From a virus: 58,405 bases of DNA. Within the stretch, counting starts at the first letter, position 1. Each line of letters opens with the position of its first letter. The notes under the pieces are model-generated. The model was not told the DNA's origin. It made no database searches and saw nothing but the letters and a program-made list of their open reading frames with translations. Made by a program: the position numbers and the translations under genes. The stretch lies in the IMG/VR virus record IMGVR_UViG_3300025704_000030, positions 1 to 58,405 of that record. One strand, written 5' to 3'. This document shows, piece after piece, positions 26,469 through 58,368 of the stretch.

Positions 26469-26474
26469 AAAAAA

Positions 26475-26737
26475 CGGAAGTAAAAAAGCAAGTAATGAAC
26501 TAGACAATGTGCATTAAGGTACTTCGCATCGCGCTTCACCTTCCAAGCAATCTACAATAAGCAACATGCAGAGGGCTTGTTTATTTCCAGCAATCAAAGT
26601 GCAACTGTTCTGTAAATCTGGAGCATACAAGCACGGAGACGTTTCAAGCGTCCTGAGCTATAGTTGTTGTTTAATTTCTAGTAAACTAGAAACACGTAAC
26701 AACACGGTTGTCCATCCTCATCTCAATTTTACTTCCG
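26475..26737 (-). ncRNA. Candidate structured ncRNA, 263 nt
   Basis: A perfect 11-bp helix (CGGAAGTAAAA with TTTTACTTCCG) joins the two ends across 263 bases. Inside are a TTTCTAG-TTTA-CTAGAAA hairpin, a GACG...CGTC hairpin, an AAGGT...ACCTT helix capped by CGC-GAT-GCG, and a TGCAT/ATGCA pairing. Six T follow the closing helix just before tRNA-Glu. No coding frame of note is seen. I do not recognise the family; large ornate RNAs are known in phage tRNA arrays (GOLLD, ROOL), but identity with those is not shown. Confidence 0.6.
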
Positions 26738-26757
26738 GGTAGTTTTACTAAACTACC
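26738..26757 (-). other. Perfect 8-bp hairpin after CDS 26766
   Basis: GGTAGTTT-AGTA-AAACTACC on the minus strand, 9 bases after the stop of the 187-residue gene and directly before the 263-nt RNA. No T-run follows, so it may be a processing or stability element rather than a terminator. Confidence 0.6.
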
Positions 26758-26765
26758 AAAACCTC

Positions 26766-27329
26766 TTAGAGGATGCCTGCTCGTTCTAAGAAACGTGCTG
26801 TTTCCTCATCCAACTCAATTTCTGTTTGAACATTAAGCTCAAGCAGTGTATCCTGCAACTTCTGCTTCTGACGCTTCAAGTCAGCAACAGTGCGTTTAAA
26901 ATCTTCCACTTCTGCCTTGGTAAAGATTGAAGTGTCCACAGCTTCACGACCGTACCCGTAACGATCTTCCTTGCCGTCTTTCAACTTGGCAATCTTACCT
27001 TCAATAACAGCATCACTTAGACGAGCTGCTTTTGTAGCGTAGGTGTTGTTGAACTGGATTTCTTTCTCCAAGTGTGCAACATCTGCTAGCAAATCGTTAA
27101 TGCTTTCATCAGCATTTGCACGAGCAACTGCTTTGCGGATAGCGTATAGCGCACCCACTAGCTTGTTGCGTGTTGCACTGTGAGTTATGAATACATCACG
27201 CACAGCATCGATCTGAGCAGAGTGATCTTCAAACTCGTTAACGCTTACTGATGTTTCGAAAGTCAAACCTTTGATCATTTCGTTGATGCTGTTCTGTACA
27301 GCGTTTGCTTTGCGTAGTGTAATGTTCAT
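26766..27329 (-). CDS. Coiled-coil protein of unknown function
   Basis: 187 residues, almost entirely helical with heptad-like segments (ADVAHLEKEIQFNNTY and VEDFKRTVADLKRQKQKLQD), no cysteine cluster or catalytic motif. Its own TTGACA-N16-TATAAT promoter precedes it. It is one of the few protein genes lodged in the tRNA array, between tRNA-Asp and tRNA-Glu. Function unknown. Confidence 0.8.
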   Translation of the reverse strand: MNITLRKANAVQNSINEMIKGLTFETSVSVNEFEDHSAQIDAVRDVFITHSATRNKLVGALYAIRKAVARANADESINDLLADVAHLEKEIQFNNTYATKAARLSDAVIEGKIAKLKDGKEDRYGYGREAVDTSIFTKAEVEDFKRTVADLKRQKQKLQDTLLELNVQTEIELDEETARFLERAGIL

Positions 27330-27354
27330 CTTCTTTTCCTTTGTGTATGTGTAT

Positions 27355-27382
27355 ATTATACAGTATTTTACTGCTTTGTCAA
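27355..27382 (-). promoter_or_regulatory. Early sigma70-like promoter
   Basis: TTGACA at 27382-27377, 16-base spacer, TATAAT at 27360-27355, for the 187-residue gene. Confidence 0.82.
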
Positions 27383-27408
27383 CTATTATTTTAAAGTGGC
27401 ATCAGCTT

Positions 27409-27489
27409 ATTCTAGTCATTTGTTAACGGGCCCAGCTGCCTTCAAGCTACTATGTAGCTTCTTTTTACACCTACGTGGGTAACTAGAAT
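27409..27489 (-). ncRNA. Structured spacer RNA candidate after tRNA-Asp
   Basis: 81 bases closed by an 8-bp helix (ATTCTAGT with ACTAGAAT). Inside is a strong AAGCTAC-ATA-GTAGCTT hairpin and a GC-rich GCTGGGCCCG segment. It lies 30 bases downstream of tRNA-Asp. Confidence 0.5.
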
Positions 27490-27519
27490 TGTTTTTATTC
27501 CCACTCTTCAAAATAAACT

Positions 27520-27596
<77 letters not shown>

Positions 27597-27601
27597 AAAT
27601 A

Positions 27602-27677
27602 TGGTAGGACGTAACGGGTTCGAACCGCTGACATTTGCCGTGTAAAGGCAACGCTCTACCAACTGAGCTAACGTCCT
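27602..27677 (-). tRNA. tRNA-Val (TAC)
   Basis: Anticodon loop TTTACAC, acceptor AGGACGT/ACGTCCT, A73, encoded CCA. Confidence 0.94.
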
Positions 27678-27678
27678 A

Positions 27679-27768
27679 TGGCGGAAGCGGTGGGATTCGA
27701 ACCCACGGAACCTTGCGGTTCGCTAGTTTTCAAGACTAGTGCCTTCAGCCAGACTCGGCCACACTTCC
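27679..27768 (-). tRNA. tRNA-Ser (TGA)
   Basis: Class II, 90 bases, anticodon loop CTTGAAA, long variable arm, acceptor GGAAGTG/CGCTTCC, G73, CCA. Confidence 0.94.
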
Positions 27769-27777
27769 TAATTGGTA

Positions 27778-27875
27778 GCAGGTGTTACACCCGCAATAAA
27801 CTTTTAAAACTGGCAGTCCAACATGCACTCTTTTAACTTATCCGCCCAGGTCATTCGACAACGATAAGTACCAGT
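27778..27875 (-). ncRNA. Structured spacer RNA candidate, tRNA-Gly to tRNA-Ser
   Basis: ACTGG/CCAGT closes a domain that contains CTTATC/GATAAG. Downstream is a 7-bp hairpin GCGGGTG-TAA-CACCTGC, and the spacer continues TACCA. The start of that hairpin repeats the first nine bases of the neighbouring tRNA-Gly gene, so a tRNA remnant is an alternative. Confidence 0.4.
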
Positions 27876-27880
27876 TAATT

Positions 27881-27954
27881 TGGAGCGGGAGAAGGGAATC
27901 GAACCCTCGTAGTAACGTTGGCAACGTTCTGCTCTACCATTGAGCTACACCCGC
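27881..27954 (-). tRNA. tRNA-Gly (GCC)
   Basis: Anticodon loop TTGCCAA, acceptor GCGGGTG/CTCCCGC with one mismatch at pair 6, U73, encoded CCA. Confidence 0.92.
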
Positions 27955-27966
27955 AATATATAAACG

Positions 27967-28042
27967 TATAGGCTCCTACTGAAAGTGCTATACAAACTCA
28001 CCTACACTTTGTTTAACTTGCTCGCTCTATGAGCGTTGTAGG
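27967..28042 (-). ncRNA. Structured spacer RNA candidate after the tRNA-like element
   Basis: Two helices on the minus strand: CCTACA/TGTAGG (with an inner CGCTC-ATA-GAGCG hairpin) and TATAG/CTATA. Together they fill most of the 101-base spacer before tRNA-Gly. Confidence 0.4.
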
Positions 28043-28055
28043 CTTAACCGCAATA

Positions 28056-28141
28056 TGGTGTCAATCGAGGAGTCGAACCTCGCCGCAGTAGGTGACATGA
28101 CGCCTGTAGTGTCTGTTACTGTTAGCGAACCCGCATTGACA
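28056..28141 (-). other. tRNA-like element without a clear anticodon arm
   Basis: A 7-bp acceptor-like helix (TGTCAAT/ATTGACA), a perfect T-arm (CGAGG-TTCGACT-CCTCG) and CCA are present. No discriminator base fits between helix and CCA, and the 50-base interior shows no normal D-arm or 5-bp/7-base anticodon arm; the best interior helix is GAC/GTC flanked by ACA/TGT. It may be a degenerate or unusual class II tRNA, or a tRNA-mimic RNA. Confidence 0.5.
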
Positions 28142-28145
28142 TATA

Positions 28146-28221
28146 TGGTGGAGGTTACCGGGATCGAACCGATGACCTATTGCTTGCAAAGCAATCGCTC
28201 TCCCAACTGAGCTAAACCCCC
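28146..28221 (-). tRNA. tRNA-Ala (TGC)
   Basis: Anticodon loop TTTGCAA, acceptor GGGGGTT/AACCTCC with one G-U, A73, CCA. Confidence 0.94.
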
Positions 28222-28226
28222 GTTAT

Positions 28227-28303
28227 TGGTCGGAGTACAAGGATTCGAACCTTGGACCCTCTGCTCCCAAAGCAGATGCGCTACCAGGCTGCGCCATACT
28301 CCG
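28227..28303 (-). tRNA. tRNA-Pro (TGG)
   Basis: Anticodon loop TTTGGGA, acceptor CGGAGTA/TACTCCG, A73, CCA. Confidence 0.94.
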
Positions 28304-28325
28304 TAAATTAGTTTAAGCAGTTTTG

Positions 28326-28409
28326 CGTCCTACTTAGGACGGCCAGTCTCCTGGGCACCATTTGCTCAATTGTTTTACAAGGGGAACAAAACCCTTAAAC
28401 TTGGTGCCC
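28326..28409 (-). ncRNA. tRNA-Leu trailer structure
   Basis: The last eight bases of tRNA-Leu (GGGCACCA) are repeated in inverted form 42 bases downstream (TGGTGCCC, 28360-28353), so the trailer can pair with the mature tRNA 3' end. AAGGG/CCCTT pairs inside, and a CGTCCT-AAGT-AGGACG hairpin follows at 28341-28326. This could govern 3' processing or form a separate small RNA. Confidence 0.5.
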
Positions 28410-28484
28410 AATGAGGGACTCGAACCCCCACGCTTTCGCACTGGTACCTAAAACCAGCGTGTCTACCAATTCCACCAATTGGGC
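28402..28484 (-). tRNA. tRNA-Leu (TAG)
   Basis: Class II, anticodon loop TTTAGGT, acceptor GCCCAAT/ATTGGGC, A73, CCA. Confidence 0.94.
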
Positions 28485-28489
28485 AATAA

Positions 28490-28539
28490 GATTCTAAAGG
28501 CTTAACTTGTCCCTACTAGGCAACAAGTGCTAAAGAATC
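28490..28539 (-). ncRNA. 50-nt nested hairpin filling the Thr-Leu spacer
   Basis: GATTCT/AGAATC closes it, ACTTGT/ACAAGT lies inside, and CCTA-G-TAGG caps it. The structure spans almost the exact distance between tRNA-Thr and tRNA-Leu. Confidence 0.55.
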
Positions 28540-28545
28540 ATTGTA

Positions 28546-28621
28546 TGGTGCCGCAACAAGGATTCGAACCCTGGACCTACTGATTACAAATCAGTTGCTC
28601 TACCAACTGAGCTATTGCGGC
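28546..28621 (-). tRNA. tRNA-Thr (TGT)
   Basis: Anticodon loop TTTGTAA, acceptor GCCGCAA/TTGCGGC, A73, CCA. Confidence 0.94.
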
Positions 28622-28622
28622 G

Positions 28623-28697
28623 TTATCTTCTTACTCTGCAACTAGGACAAAAATCATCGTGTCCTAGTTCAGTTTTACATTCACTACATGTTTTCAT
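28623..28697 (-). CDS. 24-aa mini zinc-ribbon candidate
   Basis: An ATG at 28697 opens a 24-codon frame ending one base before tRNA-Thr. The peptide has CSEC and, 11 residues on, CPSC, followed by a basic tail RVRR: a complete CxxC...CxxC zinc knuckle with almost nothing else. Its ATG lies 7 bases past the stop of the 73-residue gene and the ribosome site is weak. Two larger zinc ribbons elsewhere in the window make a real gene plausible. Confidence 0.5.
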   Translation of the reverse strand: MKTCSECKTELGHDDFCPSCRVRR

Positions 28698-28704
28698 ATA
28701 GTAC

Positions 28705-28926
28705 TTATTCGTCGTTGTTGACATCTTCAACAATATTGAGTTGATAAGAACGAATAATTTGTTCTTCTAAGTCGTTCTTATTAAACTCACCCGATTCAAG
28801 TCTACGTAGTGCATCAGCTGCACTTGAGGCTTGCTTAGATCTAACTAGATAAGCACATACACCTACTAAGTCTGTTCTGTTGATGCCTGTTGCATCCATT
28901 GCTTCTTCAATAAAGACTCGTCCCAT
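28705..28926 (-). CDS. Small helical protein in tRNA array
   Basis: 73 residues, helical and acidic at the C-terminus. The centre (LVGVCAYLVRSKQASSAADALRRL) looks like two packed helices; no known family is recognised. Its own TTGACA-N16-TATACT promoter precedes it. It lies between tRNA-Gly(TCC) and tRNA-Thr. Confidence 0.72.
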   Translation of the reverse strand: MGRVFIEEAMDATGINRTDLVGVCAYLVRSKQASSAADALRRLESGEFNKNDLEEQIIRSYQLNIVEDVNNDE

Positions 28927-28964
28927 GTGTGTAACCTTTCATGCGTTACTGTTTCTATACATTA

Positions 28965-28992
28965 AGTATAACACCTACACCGTAGATGTCAA
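28965..28992 (-). promoter_or_regulatory. Early sigma70-like promoter
   Basis: TTGACA at 28992-28987, 16-base spacer, TATACT at 28970-28965, for the 73-residue gene. Confidence 0.78.
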
Positions 28993-29001
28993 CCTGTTAA
29001 A

Positions 29002-29076
29002 TGGAGCGGGTGACAAGGATCGAACTTGCGACGAACAGCTTGGAAGGCTGACACTCTACCACTGAGTTACACCCGC
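29002..29076 (-). tRNA. tRNA-Gly (TCC)
   Basis: Anticodon loop CTTCCAA, acceptor GCGGGTG/CACCCGC, U73, CCA. Second glycine isoacceptor. Confidence 0.94.
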
Positions 29077-29084
29077 ATATTGGC

Positions 29085-29175
29085 TTTCCAGCTACCTTAG
29101 GAGTTTACCCTATAGTGTTTCACTTTACGCTATGACAGCTTTTAACTGAGAGATCATAGCAACTAAGACTGGAAA
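29085..29175 (-). ncRNA. Structured spacer RNA candidate, Ser(GCT) to Gly(TCC)
   Basis: TTTCCAG/CTGGAAA closes a 91-base element with an adjoining CTTAG/CTAAG helix. Inside is a GCTATGA/TCATAGC hairpin whose loop holds CAGTT-AAA-AGCTG. It occupies essentially the whole spacer. Confidence 0.58.
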
Positions 29176-29177
29176 CT

Positions 29178-29265
29178 TGGCGGAGCGACTGGGAGTCGAA
29201 CCCAGTGACCGTTTGCACGGTCTACAGATTAGCAATCTGCTGCATTACCATCCTGCCCCCGCTCC
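29178..29265 (-). tRNA. tRNA-Ser (GCT)
   Basis: Class II, anticodon loop TTGCTAA, variable arm with GACCGT/ACGGTC, acceptor GGAGCGG/TCGCTCC, G73, CCA. Confidence 0.94.
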
Positions 29266-29267
29266 GT

Positions 29268-29327
29268 AAACATATCCCCGATTTATCAGATTCGTTGCAT
29301 CAGCTATACTGTATGCAGGATATGTTT
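29268..29327 (-). ncRNA. 60-nt spacer RNA candidate, Asn to Ser(GCT)
   Basis: A perfect 10-bp helix (AAACATATCC with GGATATGTTT) starts two bases before the Ser gene and ends five bases after the Asn gene. Inside is TGCAT/ATGCA with CAG/CTG stacked on it, plus a weaker CGA/TCG hairpin: a small three-way junction. Confidence 0.62.
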
Positions 29328-29332
29328 AAACT

Positions 29333-29408
<76 letters not shown>

Positions 29409-47889: not shown

Positions 47890-47918
47890 ATAATAACAGA
47901 TATATTTACATGTGTCAA
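47890..47918 (-). promoter_or_regulatory. Early sigma70-like promoter of peroxiredoxin
   Basis: Perfect TTGACA at 47918-47913, 17-base spacer, TATTAT at 47895-47890. Confidence 0.8.
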
Positions 47919-47941: not shown

Positions 47942-47973
47942 CTAAATAATACTATAGCAAAGCGTGAGGGCGT
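47942..47973 (+). promoter_or_regulatory. Plus-strand late promoter and conserved leader
   Basis: CTAAATAATACTATAG followed by AGCGTGAGGGCGTTTTT. The AGCGTGAGGGCGTT leader is repeated after the late promoter of the barrel gene at about 52783-52796 on the opposite strand. Confidence 0.6.
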
Positions 47974-47977
47974 TTTT

Positions 47978-48256
47978 ATGGACTTTCTAACATTGGCAAG
48001 CGAAGTAGGCTTTCCTATTGCAGGAGCATTAGCTGCCGGCTACTTTGTTTTCCTAACACTCAAATTTATTCTAGGCGGAGTGGAAGACAGTGTAAAAACA
48101 CTCAACGGTATTATTGGCTCGCTGGATAACCGTGTACAAATTATGAACAACGACCTAGTTAAGATAGATGCACTGCTAAGTTATGCACTTGGAGTTAAAC
48201 CCAATATTGACAGAATAGCTGCCAATGAAGGCAAAAACGATGCGAGGAGAGATTAA
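47978..48256 (+). CDS. Small membrane protein, tandem copy 1 (holin-like)
   Basis: 92 residues. One hydrophobic helix (VGFPIAGALAAGYFVFLTLK) near residues 9-28 is followed by a coiled-coil-like LDNRVQIMNNDLVKIDALLS. Copy 2 downstream has the same order, so the pair arose by duplication. Good GAGGG ribosome site. The size, topology and late promoter would suit a holin or an accessory membrane protein; this is inference. Confidence 0.78.
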   Translation: MDFLTLASEVGFPIAGALAAGYFVFLTLKFILGGVEDSVKTLNGIIGSLDNRVQIMNNDLVKIDALLSYALGVKPNIDRIAANEGKNDARRD

Positions 48257-48597
48257 TGGAAATTGATATTGCTGGCGCAATCAAAGACTTTGGCTTTCCT
48301 GTTATTGCTGCGTTTGGCATGGGATACTTTATCTTCTTCATATGGAAGTGGGTAACAGAAACTATTGATCCAGTTATTGGACAAAGCATGGGTACACTAA
48401 TACGTCTTGTTGACCGTGTGCGTATGTTAGACAACGACATGATACGTTTGAACAGCAAACTTAGTATGGTGTTAGAGCATAGAGCCAGTCTTAGTCCAGA
48501 ACAAAAAGAATTCTTAGATGAAGCTATAGTAAAGTATCAAAGTCGCAGCGAAACGTTCAATAGTACCGGCAAGCCCGACGAACCAAAAAAAAAGTAG
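48256..48597 (+). CDS. Small membrane protein, tandem copy 2 (possible frameshift)
   Basis: 113 residues in the basic frame: helix FGFPVIAAFGMGYFIFFIWK, then LVDRVRMLDNDMIRLNSKLS matching copy 1, then a polar tail ending PKKK. Its start overlaps the copy 1 stop. The A9 run before the stop contains A_AAA_AAG (48588-48594); a -1 shift would add 35 residues with a second hydrophobic helix (WLLLLVVYGGTTGLLLLLTL), ending at 48701. A single-base assembly error in the run is an alternative. Confidence 0.78.
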   Translation: MEIDIAGAIKDFGFPVIAAFGMGYFIFFIWKWVTETIDPVIGQSMGTLIRLVDRVRMLDNDMIRLNSKLSMVLEHRASLSPEQKEFLDEAIVKYQSRSETFNSTGKPDEPKKK

Positions 48598-48687
48598 AAC
48601 CGGTTAAAACTAAAGCAAGTAAAGGTGGTCCGCCGTGGCTACTTTTATTAGTTGTATACGGCGGCACCACTGGATTATTGTTATTGC

Positions 48688-50727
48688 TTACTTTGTTGTA
48701 GCTACAAACACGCCATTCCAATCTTTAGGCAAATCTTGTGTTAGCATATACTCACAACGTTCAATCCACATATCGTAGTACTTTTCCATCTTGCCTTCAA
48801 ACTGTGGCTTCAACTTATTACATGATTCAATAGCTTCTTGGAATCGTTGCTGCTGATACATTTTATGCATGTCTTCATGTCTACGCTTGCTTGTTGCATA
48901 ATGTTTCTTAACATCATCTAGCACTGTGTAGATAGCAACTCCTACAGTTTTACCTTTAACTGCTAAGTCGTCTACCTTTAGGAAGAAGAAGTCTTCCTTG
49001 CACTGTTCTACAGTTGCTCCACCTACTAGTAACAAGCATCCGTATTCTTTACACTTGCTTTCTATTCTTGCTGCGGTACTGACTGCGTCTCCAAGGACGT
49101 CATAGCTGTGTCGTTTTGTGCTGCCCATCTCACCCAAGTATCCGAGTCCAGTATTGATGCCAGCGCCCATACCAACGGCAGGTCTTCCTTGAGGTATGAC
49201 AAAATCTTCATTAAACTTCTCCACTGCTTTTAGCATACGTAATCCTGTACGTACTGCTGAATCAGCATGTTTAGGATCATCTGTTGGTGCATTGTGTACG
49301 TGCATACTAGCATCGCCGATATACTTGATAACCATTCCGTCTGCATCAAGTATAGGCTGTGTAATGCTGTCCATGTACCCATTCATAATTTTAGTAAGTC
49401 CCTTTACGTCATCACCAAACGATTCGCCTAATGGCGTAAAGCCGCGCAAGTCTGAGAATACAATACTAATTTCACGTTTCATACCGTCTTTGATTAGACT
49501 TGGATTTTCTTGTAGCATACGCACAACAGTAGGGCTTGCATATCCAGCAAACTGTTTCTTAATTGCCTGCTTCTCTAGGAACTCACGTACAAACTTAATA
49601 CCGTATACCTGTAGTGCTATTAGTACAAACGTAATAACTGGCGCTGTAACGTCTAATAACAGCTTGTCTGTTGCATAAGCATACATTGAATAAGGAACTA
49701 CACTGCCTATCATCACAACAGTTGTAGCAAGTCCTACCCACAACCAACGACTTAGAAGTATAAGCAATAAACCGCCTATAGCAAGTGCTAGTAGCTCTGC
49801 TGTAGGTGCCCAGTCTGGACGCTGTATGTTTGTACCTGCAAACATTGTGCCTATTAGTGCAGCTTGTGTAGTGCCTGCGTACTGTGCTCCTGTTGCTGTA
49901 GGAATAGGATTAGCAATACCTGCTGCTGTTACATCTACAATAACTACTGCACCACCAAGGTCCTCTGGTAAGTTTGTTACGCTTACACTCTTTGAACGTT
50001 GGCTCCAATCAATCCACACACGCCCTTCACTATCAGTTGGTATTATACCAAACTGAGGAATACGCATTTTCTCAACACCAGCTGCATTTAGTTTGATTTG
50101 AAAGTTAGGGTCGCCTGCGATAACACGTAGTGTCTCAAGTGCTAGACTAGGATATAGTGTACCGTCTATGACAGCGACAGTTGGCATACGTCTTACGACA
50201 CCATCTATCTCCGGCTCTGTTGAAACGATTCCCGCACCAACACTGTTGTTTTCAAGTTCTGGTATGTTCGCAATGATACCGCCGTATGGTAGTATGCGAT
50301 CCAAGAACTGTGCTTGTAGTATTGCTGCCCCAGGATTGATGGGCTCGTTCTTTGTTTTGTCGCTGGGACGACTTGCTAGTATAACTGGATAGTCTAGCAT
50401 AGTTTCTGCTAGTTCGGCATCGCCACCTAGTCTGTCTACTTCGGGCATCATTACGTTCCATACAACTAAGCCTGCGCCTCTGTTGTACAAGTCTTTAATG
50501 ATGTCTGAGTATATGTTGCGTGGGAAAGGATATTGTCCGTACTTTTCCAATGCTGCTTCGTCTATCTCAGCAACATAGATATTATTCTCTGCTGGTTCTT
50601 GATTAACAATTAATTGGTCAAAGTAATTTAGTTTAATACTTTGTATAAAGTTATTAGGTACTGCAAATGTATACACTAATGCAGTCAGTGTAATCAATGC
50701 CCACCATGGGGATAATAATCGTTTCAT
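48688..50727 (-). CDS. CHASE2-domain class III adenylate cyclase
   Basis: 679 residues. Topology: one N-terminal helix, a periplasmic CHASE2 region (about 30-305, DEAALEKYGQYPFPRNIYSD...VVWNVMM), three helices (310-378) and a cytoplasmic cyclase domain. Metal-binding Asp426 (VFSDLRGFT) and Asp472 (KYIGDAS), and the ATP-selecting Lys468 and Asp543 (YDVLGDAV), are present, as is Arg554. The transition-state Asn is Ser550 (VSTAAR), which may lower activity. CHASE2 cyclases with FecR proteins are common bacterial partners, and a FecR gene lies nearby. Very unusual in a phage. Confidence 0.93.
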   Translation of the reverse strand: MKRLLSPWWALITLTALVYTFAVPNNFIQSIKLNYFDQLIVNQEPAENNIYVAEIDEAALEKYGQYPFPRNIYSDIIKDLYNRGAGLVVWNVMMPEVDRLGGDAELAETMLDYPVILASRPSDKTKNEPINPGAAILQAQFLDRILPYGGIIANIPELENNSVGAGIVSTEPEIDGVVRRMPTVAVIDGTLYPSLALETLRVIAGDPNFQIKLNAAGVEKMRIPQFGIIPTDSEGRVWIDWSQRSKSVSVTNLPEDLGGAVVIVDVTAAGIANPIPTATGAQYAGTTQAALIGTMFAGTNIQRPDWAPTAELLALAIGGLLLILLSRWLWVGLATTVVMIGSVVPYSMYAYATDKLLLDVTAPVITFVLIALQVYGIKFVREFLEKQAIKKQFAGYASPTVVRMLQENPSLIKDGMKREISIVFSDLRGFTPLGESFGDDVKGLTKIMNGYMDSITQPILDADGMVIKYIGDASMHVHNAPTDDPKHADSAVRTGLRMLKAVEKFNEDFVIPQGRPAVGMGAGINTGLGYLGEMGSTKRHSYDVLGDAVSTAARIESKCKEYGCLLLVGGATVEQCKEDFFFLKVDDLAVKGKTVGVAIYTVLDDVKKHYATSKRRHEDMHKMYQQQRFQEAIESCNKLKPQFEGKMEKYYDMWIERCEYMLTQDLPKDWNGVFVATTK

Positions 50728-50735
50728 GCCTACTC

Positions 50736-50876
50736 CTATTTAGAGTATTTATTTGGATTTAAAAGTTGATCCCAACTAGGTCCTACATTTTGCCAATAGT
50801 CATTGCTTATTGGTTGTAGTATTAAATAAATCATTACAAAAAGCATTGCTACCATTGCTAAACTAAATTTAATCAT
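50736..50876 (-). CDS. 46-aa membrane protein
   Basis: ATG at 50876, eight bases before the end of the upstream gene. One hydrophobic helix (FSLAMVAMLFVMIYLIL), then a short polar tail ending in NPNKYSK. The late promoter of the cyclase lies inside its 3' end. Could be a small regulator of the cyclase or barrel, but this is only position. Confidence 0.65.
   Translation of the reverse strand: MIKFSLAMVAMLFVMIYLILQPISNDYWQNVGPSWDQLLNPNKYSK
50744..50753 (-). promoter_or_regulatory. T4-type late promoter of the cyclase
   Basis: The minus strand reads AATAAATACT, 17-26 bases before the cyclase ATG at 50727. Confidence 0.7.
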
Positions 50877-51240
50877 CTCTATTGTCCCACGGTGCGTTTT
50901 CATAACATCCTGCTGGCAGTGTATCTTTGTAGTTTACACCTGCTCTAAAGCCGTCACCTGTGCGTTCCATGTAAGCACTTTCAAACGGCATTTCACGTGG
51001 TTTGCCCCAGCAACGATTTAAACTCTGTCCTGGAAATCTATAACGTGGATTGTGTTTGAGAAAGTCTCTTAGTTCTGCAAGTTCTTGTGCGTTCTTGCCT
51101 TGTCTCCAATCGGAGTAGCAACTTGCAGCTTGATTGTAGTTTGATGTATTTTGTATACAGTACTTGATTACATCGTTATTTTGATTTGCTATTGCACTAG
51201 GTGCCAATAGAATGAATGCGATGGTTAGAAATGCCCTCAT
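50869..51240 (-). CDS. Secreted periplasmic-type protein
   Basis: 123 residues with a signal peptide (MRAFLTIAFILLAPSAIA, cleavage near residue 18) and four cysteines in the mature part (YCIQNTS, SCYSDW, RCWGKP, AGCYEN), likely two disulfides. The rest is polar with PRYRFPGQSLNRCWGKPREM. Own late promoter. Function unknown; envelope role from its neighbours. Confidence 0.75.
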   Translation of the reverse strand: MRAFLTIAFILLAPSAIANQNNDVIKYCIQNTSNYNQAASCYSDWRQGKNAQELAELRDFLKHNPRYRFPGQSLNRCWGKPREMPFESAYMERTGDGFRAGVNYKDTLPAGCYENAPWDNRDD

Positions 51241-51276
51241 TGTCTTGCCCTTCTGCAGATGCCCATATCTGCTAAA

Positions 51277-51287
51277 GGTATTTAGTC
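51277..51287 (-). promoter_or_regulatory. T4-type late promoter
   Basis: The minus strand reads GACTAAATACC, about 40 bases before the ATG at 51240 and 5 bases after the terminator's T-run. Confidence 0.55.
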
Positions 51288-51289
51288 AG

Positions 51290-51312
51290 AAAAATAGGCC
51301 CCGAAGGGCCTA
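51290..51312 (-). terminator. Intrinsic terminator after the barrel gene
   Basis: AGGCCC-TTCG-GGGCCT followed by ATTTTT on the minus strand; UUCG is the most stable tetraloop. It separates the barrel gene from the secreted-protein gene. Confidence 0.88.
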
Positions 51313-51321
51313 TCTATAGTT

Positions 51322-52764
51322 TTAGAACTTCCAGACAAGTCCTGCTGAAAGACTATTTGTGTCGCCTAAGTTTGTCATTGAGCGAGTTGCTTCTACTCTC
51401 CAAGTAACTTTATCAGTTTCTTTTTCAAGACCTAGTGAAAAATCATTAACACCATCTGTGTGATGCATTGCTGTAAAATCAACTAGTCCTAGATCGCCAC
51501 GTAGACCAATTGTACCATAACCGTACATGTCATCTGTGCTTGCTACTGTTCTTGCTGTTTGTACTGAACCGTTTTCAACATATCCGTCAACTGTACGATT
51601 ACCACGTGTGTAACCAATAACAGGTTGTACCTTGCCAGTGTCCGGTGAGTATGTTACGCTTAGACTTGTGTCTGTGCCTTTGGTTGCGCTATCGTTTGCA
51701 AAGTCACCGATAGTGCGTGATACAGTATAGTCTGTTGTTGCACGACGGAACTCTACAGCAACGTTGTTTTTCTCAACACCAACTGCTACTACATCTGTGT
51801 TAGCTGTTACAGTATCATCATTACCAGCTAGGCTAGTGTCTAATCTAGTAAAGCCACCATTAATAGTTAAACCATTATCAGTAGTTTTAGATCCACCAAT
51901 AACAATACCACCAGTGTTACCACTCATACCGTTGTTATATGTACTGTTCATTCTAATACCTTGAATGTTGTCAAAGTTTAGATTTCTTACAGTACTTGAT
52001 ACAACGTCTTGCGCTGTTGCTACTTGATCAATGCGTCCTTCAAACGGCGTTAGTGCTGTGTTTGTAACTTGTACATTATCTGTAGTACCATCGCTCATAT
52101 TATCCCAGGTTGTGTCAGTTTGTGTTCTTGATACAACTTGTATAACACCACCGCTTACTGCAATATATCCTACTACTTGGCTGCTACCTTGATTTACTAC
52201 TGTTGGGGCACCGCTTGCTGATCCAGCGGCTACTTCGTTAATGTCAAGTATGCCGTTTAGGTTAGCATCGCCGTTTAAGTCACCTTGTGTTAAATTGATT
52301 GTTAAACTACGAATAACTTCATCCATTGGCATCCAGTCTGCTGTTGGCGATGCTGTTGGATCTGATGATTCAGCATTACCTAATGGAATATAAACAAATG
52401 TGTATTGACCAGTGACAAGTCCTGTGTAGTTAATACCTTGCCATACATACGATTCCTGTCCTGTCGGTCCGTTTGGATCGTAAGGAACAAGTTGTGTGCC
52501 GTCTGATGTAAAGAAGTTTACGCCGCTTAGTAGACCAGCAGGTGAATTTTGTGATAACAAGTTAAAAGCATCAATGCTTGTGCTGCCATCTGGTTTAATT
52601 ATTTTAATTTCAGCTTCGTTAAAAGCCATACCGTGCCAGTTACCGTACCAGAAGTTTAATCCTCCGCTTCCGTCACCTACATAGCCAATTGAGTTTGTGT
52701 GCGCCAATGCTGTAGACGCCATTAAAGAAGCCGCAACGACTCCTGCGATTATTTTCTTTTTCAT
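51322..52764 (-). CDS. Secreted outer-membrane barrel protein with Ca-loop
   Basis: The ATG at 52764 gives a proper signal peptide (KKKIIAGVVAASLMASTALA) with a GAGG site; 480 residues. A calcium-loop-like DLNGDANLNGILDINE lies near residue 170. The C-terminal ~230 residues alternate strands (LTINGGFTRLDTSLAG, VAVGVEKNNVAVEFRRA, LSLGLEKETDKVTWRVEA type) and end in a terminal Phe (LSAGLVWKF), the BAM beta-signal. It looks like an outer-membrane barrel with an exposed or periplasmic N-domain. Own late promoter. Confidence 0.75.
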   Translation of the reverse strand: MKKKIIAGVVAASLMASTALAHTNSIGYVGDGSGGLNFWYGNWHGMAFNEAEIKIIKPDGSTSIDAFNLLSQNSPAGLLSGVNFFTSDGTQLVPYDPNGPTGQESYVWQGINYTGLVTGQYTFVYIPLGNAESSDPTASPTADWMPMDEVIRSLTINLTQGDLNGDANLNGILDINEVAAGSASGAPTVVNQGSSQVVGYIAVSGGVIQVVSRTQTDTTWDNMSDGTTDNVQVTNTALTPFEGRIDQVATAQDVVSSTVRNLNFDNIQGIRMNSTYNNGMSGNTGGIVIGGSKTTDNGLTINGGFTRLDTSLAGNDDTVTANTDVVAVGVEKNNVAVEFRRATTDYTVSRTIGDFANDSATKGTDTSLSVTYSPDTGKVQPVIGYTRGNRTVDGYVENGSVQTARTVASTDDMYGYGTIGLRGDLGLVDFTAMHHTDGVNDFSLGLEKETDKVTWRVEATRSMTNLGDTNSLSAGLVWKF

Positions 52765-52782
52765 TTTTTTGCCCTCTTGAAA

Positions 52783-52815
52783 GAACGCCCTCACGCTCTA
52801 CTATATGTATTTACT
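52783..52815 (-). promoter_or_regulatory. Late promoter and conserved leader of the barrel gene
   Basis: AGTAAATAC at 52815-52807, then ATATAG and AGCGTGAGGGCGTTC in the leader, 43-51 bases before the ATG at 52764. The leader matches that of the membrane-protein pair at 47942. Confidence 0.65.
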
Positions 52816-52844
52816 GCGGTAATTGTAAAAATTATGTACAATGT

Positions 52845-53966
52845 TTATCGTTGCTGGATATCAATAGTGTTAACACCAACGCCAACTCGATAGTCGTATG
52901 CTGCTTCGTCACCTTGCTCTACATTTAGTGTGTATCCACTGGCTGTGCTTAGAGATAAGTCTATATTATTTTCTACACTTGCATCTTGTCTTATTACACG
53001 GTAGATATTGTCTTCTATATCAAAAAAGAATCCAGTCTTTTCATCATAACCTGTTTGCACTTCACTTATTAGTGTTTCGTTTTGTTTGTCTAATTCGTCT
53101 CTAAAAAACTCTGCTAATGCGGCATTTAGTGCATCAATCATATCGACCAAAAGCTCACGTAGATAATAGTCTGCACCTCTGTCTAGTTCAGTTACCCATA
53201 TGTCTTTGATACTATCACCTAGTACATCTTCATCTAGTCCGTCATATTCTAAAAAATCTAGTGCAAGAAAGTCTGTTGCTCTTTGTGCTTCTGCTTGTAC
53301 TTGTTCTGCTTCTTCGATTGGATCAGCACGTCTTACAATAAGCATACCTGTTATCTGTGGTTCTGTGAGAGCTACAACAATCGGTTTACTAGGAGGACTG
53401 CGTAGACTTGTTACTCTAGTCATTTGAAATGCTTGATTCATTACAACAAATCCAGCATCGTTTTCGACAGCAATTTCGCCTACAACACAATCACCATTTG
53501 AATCACAACTTGGTAGGAGGGTAATATATGATTCGCCAATTTCGTTTACAAGCATATTAAAGTCTGTGCCGCGAACACTTATAGTCGCAGTTGGTGTGCG
53601 TAGTCTTACGTTCTGTCTGCTGTTCTTTGCTATTTGTCCACTAGCATAACGAACAGCACCTAGTGTTGCCCGCATGTTTAAACTACCTTTGCCAGTTGCA
53701 GGATCGTAGACAAACTCGTCAATTACTACACGACTGTTATCAATAACATCCAGTCGTGTTTCATCAACAAAGTCTATCTGCATACGACCCTTGGTAGTTT
53801 CAGCAACATCCATTTGCTGTATTTCAACACCCACACTATTGCCAACATCCTTGTTGTCACGTTTAATAACACCACTGCCGTCAAGTGTTGTAACAGTGCC
53901 AATGTTTGCTGCAACTGCCGAGGCGGTAGTCAAGAATATGGTTACGACTAATATGAGCGTTTTCAT
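52845..53966 (-). CDS. FecR-domain secreted protein
   Basis: 373 residues. Signal peptide (LILVVTIFLTTASAVAA), then a FecR domain: GTVTTLDGSGVIKRDN, RMQIDFVDETRLDVIDNSRV, then VRLRTPTATISVRGTDFNML near residue 120-140. The C-terminal ~150 residues are a charged helix (EEAEQVQAEAQRATDFLALD) and a beta region. It is not the sigma-regulator type (no N-terminal anti-sigma domain) but the extracellular FecR type often beside CHASE2 cyclases. It is cotranscribed with the curlin gene one base upstream. Confidence 0.87.
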   Translation of the reverse strand: MKTLILVVTIFLTTASAVAANIGTVTTLDGSGVIKRDNKDVGNSVGVEIQQMDVAETTKGRMQIDFVDETRLDVIDNSRVVIDEFVYDPATGKGSLNMRATLGAVRYASGQIAKNSRQNVRLRTPTATISVRGTDFNMLVNEIGESYITLLPSCDSNGDCVVGEIAVENDAGFVVMNQAFQMTRVTSLRSPPSKPIVVALTEPQITGMLIVRRADPIEEAEQVQAEAQRATDFLALDFLEYDGLDEDVLGDSIKDIWVTELDRGADYYLRELLVDMIDALNAALAEFFRDELDKQNETLISEVQTGYDEKTGFFFDIEDNIYRVIRQDASVENNIDLSLSTASGYTLNVEQGDEAAYDYRVGVGVNTIDIQQR

Positions 53967-53967
53967 A

Positions 53968-54714
53968 TTAGTCAGTTTGTGTAATGTCTATTACACTACC
54001 GTTAGTAGTAGTATCTAACACAACAGTCTTATCAAGTGTACCACTTTGTGTAATAGTAACAACGTTTGCACTACCAGTTAGATCTAAATCAACAGTATGT
54101 CCGCTTGTGCCGCCTGAGATGTCAAGATCAACAATGTTACCGCCGTTGGCAGCACTTAGACTTGCATCGTTAGTACTTGTTACCGTTGTCGTGTTACTCG
54201 GTAATGTGTTGATAATGTCAACTGTAATGTTAGCTTTTACACCGTTGATGTCAGCATCAATAACGTTGTCGTCACCTGTTACGGTAAATGCTACTACTGA
54301 GTTTCCTGCATCAGCTGTTTCACCAATTTTAAACGTAAAGGTGTTATCATCACCTGTTGTTGTTATATCTAATGTTACAGATTCACAGTTGCCGCCACCT
54401 GCTGTACCTGCACTATCACATAGCAAGTCTACTGTGTTGTAGTCGCCTGTGAACGCCCATGTGCCTGTGTAGGTGTCTCCGTTGATTTTTGCCGATATGT
54501 CGTTGCCATCACCTGTTTGTGTAATGTCAAACGTCATAAAGTCACCATTTAGTGTTACTACCGTTGTTGCATCTCCGAATTCGTTTCCGCTGCCGTCTTG
54601 TACAATGTCTAAATCTAAAGTATCACCTACTTGTGTGATATAGATGTCATTGGCCAGAGCTGGTGCTAGAAACATTGCCATCAACGCCGATAATGTTAAT
54701 GTTTTTAACTTCAT
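53968..54714 (-). CDS. Curlin-like amyloid-repeat protein
   Basis: The ATG at 54714 (248 residues) gives a signal peptide (KTLTLSALMAMFLAPALA). Repeats resemble the curlin unit with a Gln/Asn ladder: DIYITQVGDTLDLDIVQDGS, FDITQTGDGNDISAKI, FTVTGDDNVIDADING, VVTITQSG, VIDITQTD. CsgA-like proteins are secreted by CsgG with CsgF and assemble into amyloid fibers. The number of good repeats is lower and the Asp content higher than in E. coli CsgA. The start lies 68 bases inside csgG. Confidence 0.8.
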   Translation of the reverse strand: MKLKTLTLSALMAMFLAPALANDIYITQVGDTLDLDIVQDGSGNEFGDATTVVTLNGDFMTFDITQTGDGNDISAKINGDTYTGTWAFTGDYNTVDLLCDSAGTAGGGNCESVTLDITTTGDDNTFTFKIGETADAGNSVVAFTVTGDDNVIDADINGVKANITVDIINTLPSNTTTVTSTNDASLSAANGGNIVDLDISGGTSGHTVDLDLTGSANVVTITQSGTLDKTVVLDTTTNGSVIDITQTD

Positions 54715-55516
54715 TTTGTTTACCCTCCTGGAACTTCCAAAGTCCCTTACGTTCACCCTCATGAACTAGTTCTACAATACCCTGTTCAATAGCTGCCCTC
54801 ACAGCATAGTTGACAGGTTCATTTACGCTAAATCCTGTTTCAGTTTCTAGCAATCGAGTTCCCATGTCTAGGAACCTAAATATGTCCGCTCCGGACCTGT
54901 GGCTAGCAATGGTCTTTTCCGTTGCTATACTCAGCAGCACTTCTCCTGTACTAACTGATACGATACGCATCACCACTGTTACGTTATCGATTCTGTATTC
55001 GGTGCTTGCACCTATGCCCATCCAACTGGCTCCCAATCCTCCGACTGCTACATTGCTATCATATCCAACAATGCCGCCTTCGAGAATAAGCCCTGCAAAA
55101 CGTAGCGGTTTTAAAGGTACTGCGTCTTCACCTTCGTAGTTTTCACGTGTTTGTCTAATAAGTTGACGCTCTTTAATAAGATTGTCCATGCCCACACGTT
55201 CTACTACTTCAAACCAATCTCCGTTGCCCACTTCTTGTAAGGCTTTGATAACCCAGGCTTCTGAACCTTGTGTAACAGCACTGCTTAGGTTACTTACACT
55301 GTCACTAGGTTTACGCTGTCCTGTTTTGTCTGTAAAACTGTAAATAGCAATTGTTATTTTTTGCCCGTCTAACTCTGGTACGTCTTCTAGTCTTTGCTGT
55401 ATCGGCGAATCTTGAACTGTGGGAGATGTTTTAGTATCTTCTAGTATTTGCATACTAGGGCCCATTGCACACCCGCCTAACAGTGTTGCTGCTAAAAGTG
55501 TTGCCAGTAATTTCAT
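54647..55516 (-). CDS. csgG: CsgG curli secretion pore
   Basis: 289 residues. A lipoprotein signal (LLATLLAATLLGGC, Cys16) leads into a CsgG domain with close matches to the E. coli protein: TIAIYSFTDKTGQ, VVERVGMDNLIKERQLIRQT, LILEGGIVGYDSN, GGLGASWMGIGASTEYRID, VTVVMRIVSVSTGEVLLSI and the late FSVNEPVNYAVRAAIEQGI. CsgG forms a nine-fold outer-membrane pore. csgF is immediately upstream (1 base) and curlin overlaps it downstream. Very firm assignment. Confidence 0.95.
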   Translation of the reverse strand: MKLLATLLAATLLGGCAMGPSMQILEDTKTSPTVQDSPIQQRLEDVPELDGQKITIAIYSFTDKTGQRKPSDSVSNLSSAVTQGSEAWVIKALQEVGNGDWFEVVERVGMDNLIKERQLIRQTRENYEGEDAVPLKPLRFAGLILEGGIVGYDSNVAVGGLGASWMGIGASTEYRIDNVTVVMRIVSVSTGEVLLSIATEKTIASHRSGADIFRFLDMGTRLLETETGFSVNEPVNYAVRAAIEQGIVELVHEGERKGLWKFQEGKQNEVKNINIIGVDGNVSSTSSGQ

Positions 55517-55965
55517 TAGAAGTTGAACTCCCCACTAGCAGGAATAGTTACAGTTGTTATTGATCCGTCATCGCTTACAATAGTTAACGTGATGTTTCCG
55601 TCTGCTCTAACCCAAGTAATCTCTGAGCCTTCTATTTCTGCTGTGCCTGTGTTAGAACAATTATCTGAACAATCAGCAAACATAGCGTCTACCATTTGCT
55701 TAGATAGCTGTGCGTATATACGTGATTCAACGTTTTTAAGAAACTTGTTTAGCGTAGTATTTTCGAGTTCGCGCTCAATACGTCTAGCTTCTGATTCGGC
55801 TTTTGCTTCTAAGTCTGCTTTGCGATTGTGTTGTAGTTGTTCAGTAGATAGTACATGCGAACTATAGCCTTGCCCTGAGAATCTTGGATTTTTAAAATTC
55901 CAAGTTAAATCTGCCCAAGCTGTATTGGCGCACATAAACAATATTAATATTGTAATGTATCTCAT
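55516..55965 (-). CDS. csgF: CsgF-like curli accessory protein
   Basis: 149 residues. Signal peptide (YITILILFMCANTAWA), then the CsgF N-terminal segment LTWNFKNPRFSGQG, which in E. coli plugs the CsgG pore constriction, a helix with charged repeats (DLEAKAESEARRIERELENT) and a beta C-terminus. No CsgE, CsgB or CsgC is seen. First gene of the csgF-csgG-curlin-fecR operon. Confidence 0.9.
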   Translation of the reverse strand: MRYITILILFMCANTAWADLTWNFKNPRFSGQGYSSHVLSTEQLQHNRKADLEAKAESEARRIERELENTTLNKFLKNVESRIYAQLSKQMVDAMFADCSDNCSNTGTAEIEGSEITWVRADGNITLTIVSDDGSITTVTIPASGEFNF

Positions 55966-55986
55966 TTAAATACCCCCTATCCCTAT

Positions 55987-55997
55987 ACTATATTTAA
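55987..55997 (-). promoter_or_regulatory. Late promoter of the curli operon
   Basis: The minus strand reads ACTTAAATATA, about 22 bases before the csgF ATG at 55965; core TAAATA with a weaker 5' flank. Confidence 0.55.
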
Positions 55998-56083
55998 GTG
56001 ATTACAACCAAAAATTTAATATATACATAAAGAAAATGCGACTCGAAGGTCGCATATAACTGATTATCTAAATAACGAAGTAT

Positions 56084-57655
56084 TTAAGGACGTTGTCCTG
56101 GTTTGAATAAGAAACTAAATCCGCCACTTGGCTTTTTAGTTGCATAATAGTACGCTGTACAATCAAACAATATAGTACCTTCAAATACTGGAGGATAAAT
56201 TACAGCAAAGTTTACAAATTCGCCTTCTTCACCTTTAGCTTTAAATCCTGTCTTAACTTGTACCATATTAGAACTTTCAAGTACTGATGCAAAGAACGCA
56301 TAAACTGTTTTTGCATCTTCGTTGATTTTATTTTGCACAATACGTGCAAGACTTGCACTAGCATGATACCCTGGCATATATAGACCGTGTGTTAGAGTCG
56401 GCTTATATCCATCGTATCCTACTGTCATTGAATAAAAACTACCATTGTCAATTGCTTGTAGACCTTCTACGTCTTTTGGATTAGCATTAATTATGTCGTG
56501 CGCTTGTTTTGCAACTTCAGGAGTAATAATATTCAGTCTCGCTGCTAAAGCAAACGGCTGCATCATACTAGTATTGTTTTTACAAATGTCTAAGATATCA
56601 AGTTGTAACTTAAACTTTTCGTCGAAGCCGGGAACGCGATCTCTAATAACGTCTCCACGCTTTTCAAGTGCTTCAGTAATTCCTTTGAGACTTGCTGCTG
56701 CTCCGCCTTTTTTATCTTTAGAACTTACGCCTACTTTTGTGCCTGCTGCTGAATACATATAGCTATCAATTAGCTTTTCTGCAATGTCTAGTGGAAATTC
56801 AACTTCAGTCATTCCTGCCCAAGTTAATCCTGGCTCAAGTACGTCTAACAACTTTTGCTCTGCGTCTCTATAACTACCACTTACTAATTGCCCTGTTTGA
56901 AGTGCAATAGGTGCTACTGTTTCGCCTAGTTGTACTTCGTAGTTAGCTTTGTATTCTGGATTAATAGGACTCGGACCTCTTGCAAAGTTTTCAATCAGAC
57001 CAATAACATTTTCATGTTCTTCTTGTGGTATCTTAGCACTAGTCTTAATTCCTTCTTTAACTGCATTAAGAATATTTGCAACTTGCATTTTCTTACCAAC
57101 AATATTTAAAAAGTTAGGGAACATGCCAACTGCACCGTGTGTGCCAGTTTTGTTTGCACCACGCTTGATTGTAATAGGTGCACCGATTGCATTTAGATCT
57201 TTTACAAACTCAGTTACGCCCCAATAGATGTGATCTGCTGCGTCTTTATTATTTTTATATTTTCCGTAGTATGTTCTGCCCTGGGCACTTGTTAGTTCGA
57301 CAATAATTACAGCAAAGTTTGCTCTCTTCTGACCTTTGACAAATTTAACTGCATTAGGATGTATTTTCACTGCATCTACTAGTTCTGCTTCAAACTGATC
57401 GTCTGGTGATATCATGTCATTTGATAGTGCAGGAACATCGTTGTTTGCTGTTGGCTCGTCAACTGGTTTAGCTTCGTAACGCTTTACTCCAGCTTCTAGT
57501 GGAAACTTGTAAGCATTAGTAATATTATATTCAACTCCGTTGCTGTCTACAAAACTGTCACCCTTACCAGCTTGATGATCCATTGCTGTGCCTACAACGC
57601 CGCGGGTTGCTTCGAACACTTTTTGTGCTACATTTTTGATTTCTAGAAAACGCAT
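56084..57655 (-). CDS. Unknown 523-aa late phage protein
   Basis: 523 residues, no signal peptide or membrane helix. Landmarks are an N-terminal VFEATRGVVGTAMDHQAGKG, NFAVIIVELTSAQGRTYYGKYK (near 115), GAPITIKRGANKTGTHGAVG, and a C-terminal FVNFAVIYPPVFEGTILFDC. Some segments recall phage-encoded nucleases but no catalytic set can be fixed. A good late promoter suggests a virion or packaging role. Not recognised. Confidence 0.78.
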   Translation of the reverse strand: MRFLEIKNVAQKVFEATRGVVGTAMDHQAGKGDSFVDSNGVEYNITNAYKFPLEAGVKRYEAKPVDEPTANNDVPALSNDMISPDDQFEAELVDAVKIHPNAVKFVKGQKRANFAVIIVELTSAQGRTYYGKYKNNKDAADHIYWGVTEFVKDLNAIGAPITIKRGANKTGTHGAVGMFPNFLNIVGKKMQVANILNAVKEGIKTSAKIPQEEHENVIGLIENFARGPSPINPEYKANYEVQLGETVAPIALQTGQLVSGSYRDAEQKLLDVLEPGLTWAGMTEVEFPLDIAEKLIDSYMYSAAGTKVGVSSKDKKGGAAASLKGITEALEKRGDVIRDRVPGFDEKFKLQLDILDICKNNTSMMQPFALAARLNIITPEVAKQAHDIINANPKDVEGLQAIDNGSFYSMTVGYDGYKPTLTHGLYMPGYHASASLARIVQNKINEDAKTVYAFFASVLESSNMVQVKTGFKAKGEEGEFVNFAVIYPPVFEGTILFDCTAYYYATKKPSGGFSFLFKPGQRP

Positions 57656-57675: not shown

Positions 57676-57687
57676 TAGTATTTATGC
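57676..57687 (-). promoter_or_regulatory. T4-type late promoter
   Basis: The minus strand reads GCATAAATACTA, 21-32 bases before the ATG at 57655 and overlapping the bilin reductase 3' end. Confidence 0.72.
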
Positions 57688-58368
57688 AAGTTTAGGAAAC
57701 AACATGTCTGTACAGAACTTGTCTACATCAGCTTCGTTAAGTCCTAGACTTTTCATTGTGCGCGGAGTGTGTGGATTCTGTTGCTGGTTGTGACAGTAAT
57801 AGTTCTGTGCGGCAGCTACTAGATCAGTATTTTCAGTTCCAGTAAACTCGCCAATCTCATCAAAGTATGCACGAAGGTTGTCTTGTGCTAGTTCAATGAT
57901 AGCAACTGCTTCTTCTTCTGTGCTTACATTGCCAGCGGCAAGCATTTTGTCTGAGAAAATATTAGTAGCCCACTCTGGTAACTGTCGTTGTTTGGTAGGA
58001 ATAAAGTCTGCAACAGCTTCTTTGTATCCTGCAATCATAGGATTGTCTAGGTCAGCACTTGCACTAAAATCATGGAACGCACCTGTCATTTTATTCTTAC
58101 CAGCAATAACATCAAACCCGTAGATAGGACCAGGATTGCTTAGTACAGGAAACACGCATACATGCATCATCCATAACCCCTTGGTGTCACGAGCATCTAC
58201 TACATCAATGTGCGCCCGGCGTACATGATCGTTACGCCAAACACGATTGACCCAAGTATCGTTATTAAAGTGAGCAAGACCTGGCTCTTCAAATTCAGTT
58301 GCTTGTTCATCAAATATCCGTATAATTTCATCTTTACACTCAATTAGTCTATCCCAAATAATACTCAT
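57682..58368 (-). CDS. pcyX: Ferredoxin-dependent bilin reductase (PcyX/PebS-like)
   Basis: 228 residues aligning with PcyA. The catalytic places are AHIDVV (PcyA His74/Glu76, here His53/Asp55), MMHVCVFP (His88, here His69), PIYGFDVIAG (Asp105, here Asp86); further matches are RQLPEWATNIFSD and NYYCHNQQQNPHTPRTMK. Asp instead of Glu at position 76 is what four-electron phage reductases making phycoerythrobilin show, as I recall. It needs ferredoxin and biliverdin; the upstream gene seems to be heme oxygenase. PcyX has been described from marine phage contigs not assigned to cyanobacteria. Confidence 0.88.
   Translation of the reverse strand: MSIIWDRLIECKDEIIRIFDEQATEFEEPGLAHFNNDTWVNRVWRNDHVRRAHIDVVDARDTKGLWMMHVCVFPVLSNPGPIYGFDVIAGKNKMTGAFHDFSASADLDNPMIAGYKEAVADFIPTKQRQLPEWATNIFSDKMLAAGNVSTEEEAVAIIELAQDNLRAYFDEIGEFTGTENTDLVAAAQNYYCHNQQQNPHTPRTMKSLGLNEADVDKFCTDMLFPKLA

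Follow-up and report, generated by a model that had tools for sequence, protein, structure and literature searches.

A candidate curli-type secretion module with late-type promoter motifs in a T4-like phage genome fragment

Genes of the island

The window examined here is the whole 58,405-base IMG/VR virus record IMGVR_UViG_3300025704_000030, a genome fragment of a marine phage that carries T4-like structural genes (baseplate wedge, tail-fibre connector). It contains an island of envelope-type genes described in an earlier reading of the sequence, hereafter the original prediction, as CsgF, CsgG, a curlin-like protein, a FecR protein, an outer-membrane barrel, two small envelope proteins and a CHASE2 cyclase lying together. 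On the minus strand, from 55965 down to 48688, the order is csgF, csgG, a curlin-repeat gene, fecR, an autotransporter-like gene (the predicted barrel), p123, p55 and the cyclase gene; the plus strand, opposite to the curli genes, carries the two small membrane-protein genes (47978-48597). All these genes were recovered as intact open reading frames (ORFs). The original prediction is upheld in that a T4-like phage bears a true secretion module of the curli type. In keeping with envelope proteins, the island protein sequences show signal peptides or membrane segments. The dN/dS ratios of 0.08-0.27 for csgF, csgG, curlin, fecR, cyclase, barrel and p123 indicate purifying selection on all genes tested. 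A DNA search against phage records found no near match, and an Rfam scan of the island gave zero matches.

The CsgF homologue (55516-55965, 149 residues) matches Pfam PF10614 (E 1.7e-15). Its N-terminal region F-x-N-P-x-F-x-G aligns with the start of Escherichia coli CsgF (E 0.007) and is conserved in 22 homologues, which points to the region that binds CsgG. The outer-membrane secretion pore CsgG (54647-55516, 289 residues, lipobox Cys16) is recognized by Pfam (E 3.4e-50), and a profile of 19 homologues matches the solved CsgG (E 9e-68). The predicted secreted curlin (53968-54714, 248 residues, signal peptide) was given its start at the second ATG of a longer ORF (53968-54762). Alone, the window copy matches Pfam Curlin_rpt weakly (0.02-0.035), below Pfam's cut-off; 17 of its 20 homologues match the same family (best 4e-7), and the NCBIfam CsgB model gives E 6e-6. 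In the structure model, short strands are stacked on one another (pLDDT 83, pTM 0.80). The family assignment of this putative curlin rests on the Curlin_rpt and CsgB profiles. Taken together, a CsgG pore, a CsgF and curlin repeats in a predicted secreted substrate identify the island, by sequence, as a type VIII (curli) secretion system.

The FecR-domain protein (52845-53966, minus strand, 373 residues) starts with a signal peptide. Pfam FecR is matched in the window (E 1e-8) and in 19/19 homologues, all of which lack any other convincing domain. Pfam detected no cytoplasmic anti-sigma N-terminus in the window protein or in the 19 homologues, and the island contains no sigma factor that could serve as a FecI-type partner. 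An identity as anti-sigma regulator of ferric citrate uptake is not supported despite the FecR domain. The C-terminal tail resembles the curlin C-terminus in one profile comparison (alignment P 0.009, weak); with no Pfam match to the tail, the likeness is suggestive and the tail was not accepted as a true curlin repeat. A 12-pair hairpin (53946-53973) spans the fecR start codon, and some relatives also fold strongly there, with differing sequences. In relatives, a family of small beta-rich proteins of ~104-116 residues without Pfam match is encoded between FecR and the cyclase (L015:15826-16155 and homologues).

The predicted outer-membrane barrel (51322-52764, minus strand) is a real barrel according to an AlphaFold2 model built from 15 homologues. 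The model comprises a signal peptide, a passenger, a helix (247-260) and a 12-strand C-terminal barrel (265-480), with pLDDT ~80-95 for the barrel part and 70 for the whole. The best Protein Data Bank (PDB) matches found by Foldseek are the autotransporter translocators NalP (E 9e-8), EstA, AaaA, EspP and BrkA; no Pfam match up to E 0.1 and no NCBIfam match to a curated autotransporter profile were obtained. The protein is thus modelled as a type V autotransporter, with a 12-strand translocator and the preceding helix. Compared with the window, L071 shares 20% of the passenger and 71% of the barrel, and L060 82% and 42%, respectively, suggesting that passenger and translocator recombine or evolve independently. 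Relatives of the autotransporter also occur outside curli loci and in two Synechococcus phages, one of which has its homologue annotated as an autotransporter and adjoining two endolysins. In most relatives, the place of the window barrel is held by a second curlin. The papers describing module genes in related phages, in the parts available, mention no autotransporter or barrel apart from CsgG's own (PMC7029224; PMC9004378; PMC9599517), so that an autotransporter with a putatively exchangeable passenger beside curli appears to be new relative to the literature searched. Such swappable passengers would argue for surface display under changing selection.

The CHASE2 class III nucleotide cyclase (48688-50727, minus strand, 679 residues) matches the Pfam CHASE2 (E 2e-29) and cyclase (E 4e-17) domains. 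The Lys-Asp pair of class III cyclases reads adenine, and in mammalian cyclases catalysis is weakened by loss of the transition-state Asn. The window enzyme retains the metal-binding Asp pair, the adenine-reading Lys and the catalytic Arg; it has Asp in place of Ser/Thr at the second specificity position and Ser in place of the transition-state Asn. These two changes are found in all phage cyclases compared except L001, L023 and L029, three distinct lineages, whereas all bacterial cyclases compared have Ser/Thr and Asn. Cyclases of the changed type come out as a single group in the tree. This altered active site, shared by most phage cyclases, appears to be new relative to the literature searched. 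In some relatives, secreted hydrolases of the CHAP/NlpC type are encoded just before the cyclase gene (L018:10860-11345; L076:2201-2755).

Between the autotransporter and cyclase genes lie p123 (50869-51240), a small secreted Cys-containing protein with an N-terminal signal-like segment, and p55 (50736-50903), a small protein with one transmembrane segment (TM) whose ORF overlaps p123, both on the minus strand. A p123 gene was found in 26 further contigs, mostly between FecR or barrel and cyclase, and is directly followed by p55 in most of them. The small one-TM proteins 1 (47978-48256, 92 residues) and 2 (48256-48597, 113 residues) are plus-strand paralogues, as judged by alignment and a shared family (PHROG 18771); protein 1 is kept in the module of 20 or more contigs. 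Protein 1 stands at a position for which histidine kinases have been reported: PMC9599517 (available in part) gives this label to the small genes preceding csgF and treats FecR as an iron regulator. Among 30 homologues of the small proteins (86-115 residues), no HisKA/HATPase or other kinase family was matched even at E 10, and the kinase identity was rejected. Both the missing kinase domain and the missing anti-sigma part of FecR appear to be new relative to the literature searched. A YvrJ/holin identity was not accepted either, the matches being weak and not significant (7/30 homologues, best E 0.05); it stays a lead.

Late-type motifs and transcription units

An element of the TATAAATA type, as expected of T4-like late units, is present upstream of units of the island, often just as its TAAATA part. 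Fourteen copies of the exact core ATAAATA were counted in the window, always on the coding strand, and 11 of them lie within 50 nt upstream of a gene start (binomial p 4e-13). The strict TATAAATA occurs three times, below chance, and the total ATAAATA count is likewise not above chance. The late-motif signal is in strand and position, not in the number of copies.

The original prediction gave each transcription unit of the island a TAAATA-type late promoter. This holds for the units headed by csgF, barrel, p123, cyclase and the small-protein pair, if the shorter TAAATA is accepted; the exact ATAAATA is found in the island at the cyclase gene only. TAAATA lies on the minus strand 25 nt before csgF (55991-55996) and before the autotransporter gene (52808-52813) and p123 (51279-51284; 7/25 relatives, 2.3 expected). 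It occurs twice before the cyclase gene, within the ATAAATA core (50746-50752) and at 50737, and once on the plus strand before the small-protein pair (47943-47948). By chance, ~3% of 60-nt stretches contain TAAATA. In the window none was found upstream of csgG, curlin, fecR or p55, which would thus belong to operons. An intrinsic-terminator-like hairpin (56036-56055, minus strand) appears to close the unit upstream of csgF; eight such sites were found in the region against 5.4 by chance, weak evidence alone. The stretch holding the cyclase motifs (50736-50752) lies within the end of the p55 coding sequence, and in several relatives the p55 codons NPNKY also spell ATAAATA. In L007, L008, L014-L017 and L030 the late motif ends just 4 nt before the cyclase ATG (ATAAATACTGTATG), which would yield a nearly leaderless late mRNA.

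The same pattern recurs in relatives, where TAAATA was counted within 80 nt upstream of genes from non-redundant contigs, with expectations obtained by shuffling. The motif precedes csgF in 23/33 cases (shuffled 3.8), the barrel gene in 11/14 (1.8) and the cyclase gene in 22/34 (2.9), as against 0/33 for csgG, 2/36 for curlin and 0/31 for fecR; motif-bearing and motif-free genes differ at Fisher p 2e-24. Eight of the ten csgF genes lacking the motif have a second small membrane-protein gene directly upstream, and where small membrane-protein genes directly precede csgF the motif stands before the first of them in 7/8 contigs. This distribution suggests that csgF, csgG, curlin and fecR form one unit and that the cyclase, the barrel and the small proteins belong to separate units.

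Among published accounts, each available in part, late-promoter prediction was attempted in pelagimyophages and failed (PMC7029224); 15 late promoters were counted in Methylophilales phage Melnitz, none of them assigned to curli (PMC9004378), and promoters are not mentioned in PMC9599517. The putative late-type motifs at csgF, barrel and cyclase genes across relatives are therefore new with respect to the literature searched, and given the failed prediction in pelagimyophages they provide a usable regulatory map. Their conservation narrows the role of the module to functions acting late and indicates which genes would be made together.

Relatives in phages and bacteria

Relatives of CsgG were found in 34 viral contigs. 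The check proposed with the original prediction, co-occurrence of CsgG, curlin, FecR and CHASE2 cyclase in other genomes, was run: the module order is repeated in over 25 phage contigs and in the cultured phages HTVC008M, a Pelagibacter phage, and Melnitz, and wherever a contig extends 4 kb or more beyond FecR (21/21) the cyclase is present. The four short contigs L038-L040 and L042, assigned to bacterial metagenome-assembled genomes, look like phage pieces. The original prediction had regarded the full set with cyclase, FecR and barrel under late control as new. CsgF, CsgG, CsgA/B, FecR, a second curlin and an adenylate cyclase have in fact been published as one transferred block, widespread in pelagiphage myo- and podoviruses (PMC9599517), and these genes were described earlier in pelagiphages and Melnitz (PMC7029224; PMC9004378), so that most of the claimed novelty of the gene set was already in print in 2020-2022, as far as the available parts of these papers go.

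A bacterial counterpart was found in Hyphomonas sp. TMED17 (L041), in which csgF, csgG, curlin, fecR and a CHASE2 cyclase gene follow one another on a 705-kb contig amid ordinary chromosomal genes. In the trees, its CsgG and its cyclase both fall outside the phage clade, on long branches. CsgF occurs in 21/105 genomes of its family, and the others score far lower against the phage profile. FecR and cyclase were not found in five other alphaproteobacterial curli operons sampled; FecR-domain genes with CHASE2 cyclases nearby, and without CsgF and CsgG, do occur in alphaproteobacteria (L043-L047, L050, L052-L054). Judged by gene content, bacteria do have curli modules that include FecR and cyclase, if rarely, which contradicts the statement in PMC9599517, available in part, that FecR and cyclase do not occur within bacterial type VIII operons. 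A putative five-gene operon outside the phage clade appears new relative to the literature searched. It offers a testable source of the module and might serve in the laboratory as a model of how FecR and cyclase are linked.

A bilin reductase gene upstream (57682-58368, ferredoxin-dependent, PcyA/PcyX type; Pfam Fe_bilin_red 58 bits, NCBIfam PcyA E 4e-22) stands near upstream in many relatives, and a downstream peroxiredoxin gene is likewise found next to the module in independent contigs. The promoter of the peroxiredoxin gene (47890-47918; TTGACA-17-TATTAT with TG) is a strong one of the sigma-70 type, not of the late type. A 523-residue gene product (56084-57655) has no Pfam, PHROG or NCBIfam match and only distant relatives (24-28%) in four contigs. 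The window also carries 21 tRNA genes (24923-29408) for 19 of the 20 amino acids, tyrosine alone being uncovered.

Role of the module and known systems

The role of the module is disputed, with sibling capture, exclusion, uptake and lysis all considered. We favour, with moderate confidence, a phage-borne type VIII secretion module driven by the late programme and remodelling the outer surface of the infected cell, which would probably be rebuilt late in infection. Late sigma-dependent transcription would make CsgF, CsgG, curlin and FecR together; curlin would be exported by CsgG and nucleated or anchored via CsgF, perhaps assisted by the curlin-like tail of the FecR protein, and the autotransporter would show a passenger of its own that can be exchanged. 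FecR in the periplasm could form a sensor pair with the CHASE2 domain and so adjust the cyclase. Such a pair is plausible since in Sinorhizobium meliloti a single cAMP circuit involves both extracytoplasmic FecR-domain proteins and CHASE2 cyclases, and removal of CHASE2 leads to constitutive cyclase activity and cAMP (PMC5498481). The most likely benefit would be an altered late cell surface, through phage exclusion or through aggregation by which cells and virions stay together; lysis driven by pores is less likely. It is a tentative and rather unlikely extension that two outer-membrane export routes, curli and a modular autotransporter, operate at once while FecR and CHASE2 sense the exported fibre and drive a phage-rebuilt cyclase, so that the nucleotide signal of the doomed cell is altered.

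Several observations weigh against surface remodelling. Melnitz-infected cultures did not clump (PMC9004378, available in part). The curlin model found no PDB match at E <= 0.001. CsgE was not found by Pfam among the ten island ORFs, which leaves gating unexplained, and neither were CsgC and CsgD, enterobacterial accessory genes; genes of the CsgE, CsgC and CsgD types are not part of alphaproteobacterial modules (PMC9599517, in its available part). With its canonical Asn lost, the cyclase may be weak or altered. The contigs are mutually related, so that the motif counts are not fully independent, even if motif-to-gene spacing does vary among them. Finally, the window is only part of the phage genome, which limits the view of late regulators of the gp55/gp33 type.

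The original prediction had also proposed that the proteins open outer-membrane pores; this might apply at most to CsgG, the barrel being modelled as an autotransporter and not as a free pore. A lysis role, in which the envelope is depolarised or made leaky late by CsgG, possibly ungated for want of CsgE, and by small membrane proteins resembling holins, with virion release aided in this way, was proposed for Melnitz (PMC9004378, available in part). It fits the late-type motifs, the two small one-TM proteins with their weak YvrJ similarity, the CHAP-type hydrolase beside the cyclase in some relatives (L018, L076) and the endolysins next to the cyanophage autotransporter. It is nonetheless unlikely, as curlin, FecR and cyclase would not be needed and yet are kept under strong purifying selection, an outer-membrane pore cannot act as an inner-membrane holin, and the YvrJ similarity is not significant. 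The use of CsgG as a route for iron or cofactors, tuned by FecR and cyclase, was suggested in PMC9599517 (available in part), and uptake might rise if the pore were open. This role is very improbable: expression in the late phase comes late for uptake, a secreted FecR protein that has no anti-sigma segment is tied to ferric citrate signalling in name only, and curlin and autotransporter are left unexplained.

The composition of the island itself may be read differently. FecR and cyclase could be passengers, an unrelated signalling pair integrated by chance beside curli, as their pairing away from CsgF and CsgG in alphaproteobacteria and their absence from the five sampled curli operons would allow. 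The constant presence of the cyclase with curli genes in the long contigs and the Hyphomonas chromosome with all five genes in one order make such chance integration improbable. Bacterial-type envelope genes in a metagenomic contig could also result from a chimeric assembly of phage and bacterial DNA. This has next to no probability and was ruled out: the bilin reductase and peroxiredoxin neighbours and the gene order recur in independent contigs, the complete HTVC008M and Melnitz genomes carry the module, and the base composition of the island runs on without break into the remaining window. Island and structural genes are thus one phage feature, as the original prediction had supposed.

Surface remodelling by a curli module can be compared with several described systems. 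The Hyphomonas sp. TMED17 operon has the same five genes from csgF to the CHASE2 cyclase in identical order; unlike the window, it lies on a bacterial chromosome and has a longer curlin (504 residues) and canonical cyclase residues. The curli region of Pelagibacter phage HTVC008M (KC465899) shares the order of two small membrane proteins, CsgF, CsgG, curlin, FecR and cyclase, with a second curlin before the cyclase. It differs by the lack of autotransporter, p123 and p55, by small proteins before csgF on the same strand and by a cyclase that retains Asn. Melnitz (MZ577097), for which CsgF/G only were described and lysis timing proposed (PMC9004378, available in part), shares the gene order and an equally changed active site in a cyclase 52% identical, whereas it has a second curlin and no autotransporter at that place. 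The type VIII 'partner-AMG' module of pelagiphages corresponds in its block of CsgF, CsgG, CsgA/B, FecR and cyclase; it includes a second curlin, and promoter and barrel are not mentioned in the available part of its description (PMC9599517). The autotransporters NalP, EstA, AaaA and EspP resemble the window protein in the predicted 12-strand C-terminal barrel with a helix before it, the latter being phage-encoded, without Pfam match and with a passenger unrelated to known ones as far as tested. CyaD1 and SMc02177 of S. meliloti likewise combine a CHASE2 cyclase with an extracytoplasmic FecR-domain protein, in a plant symbiont and not beside curli genes (PMC5498481).

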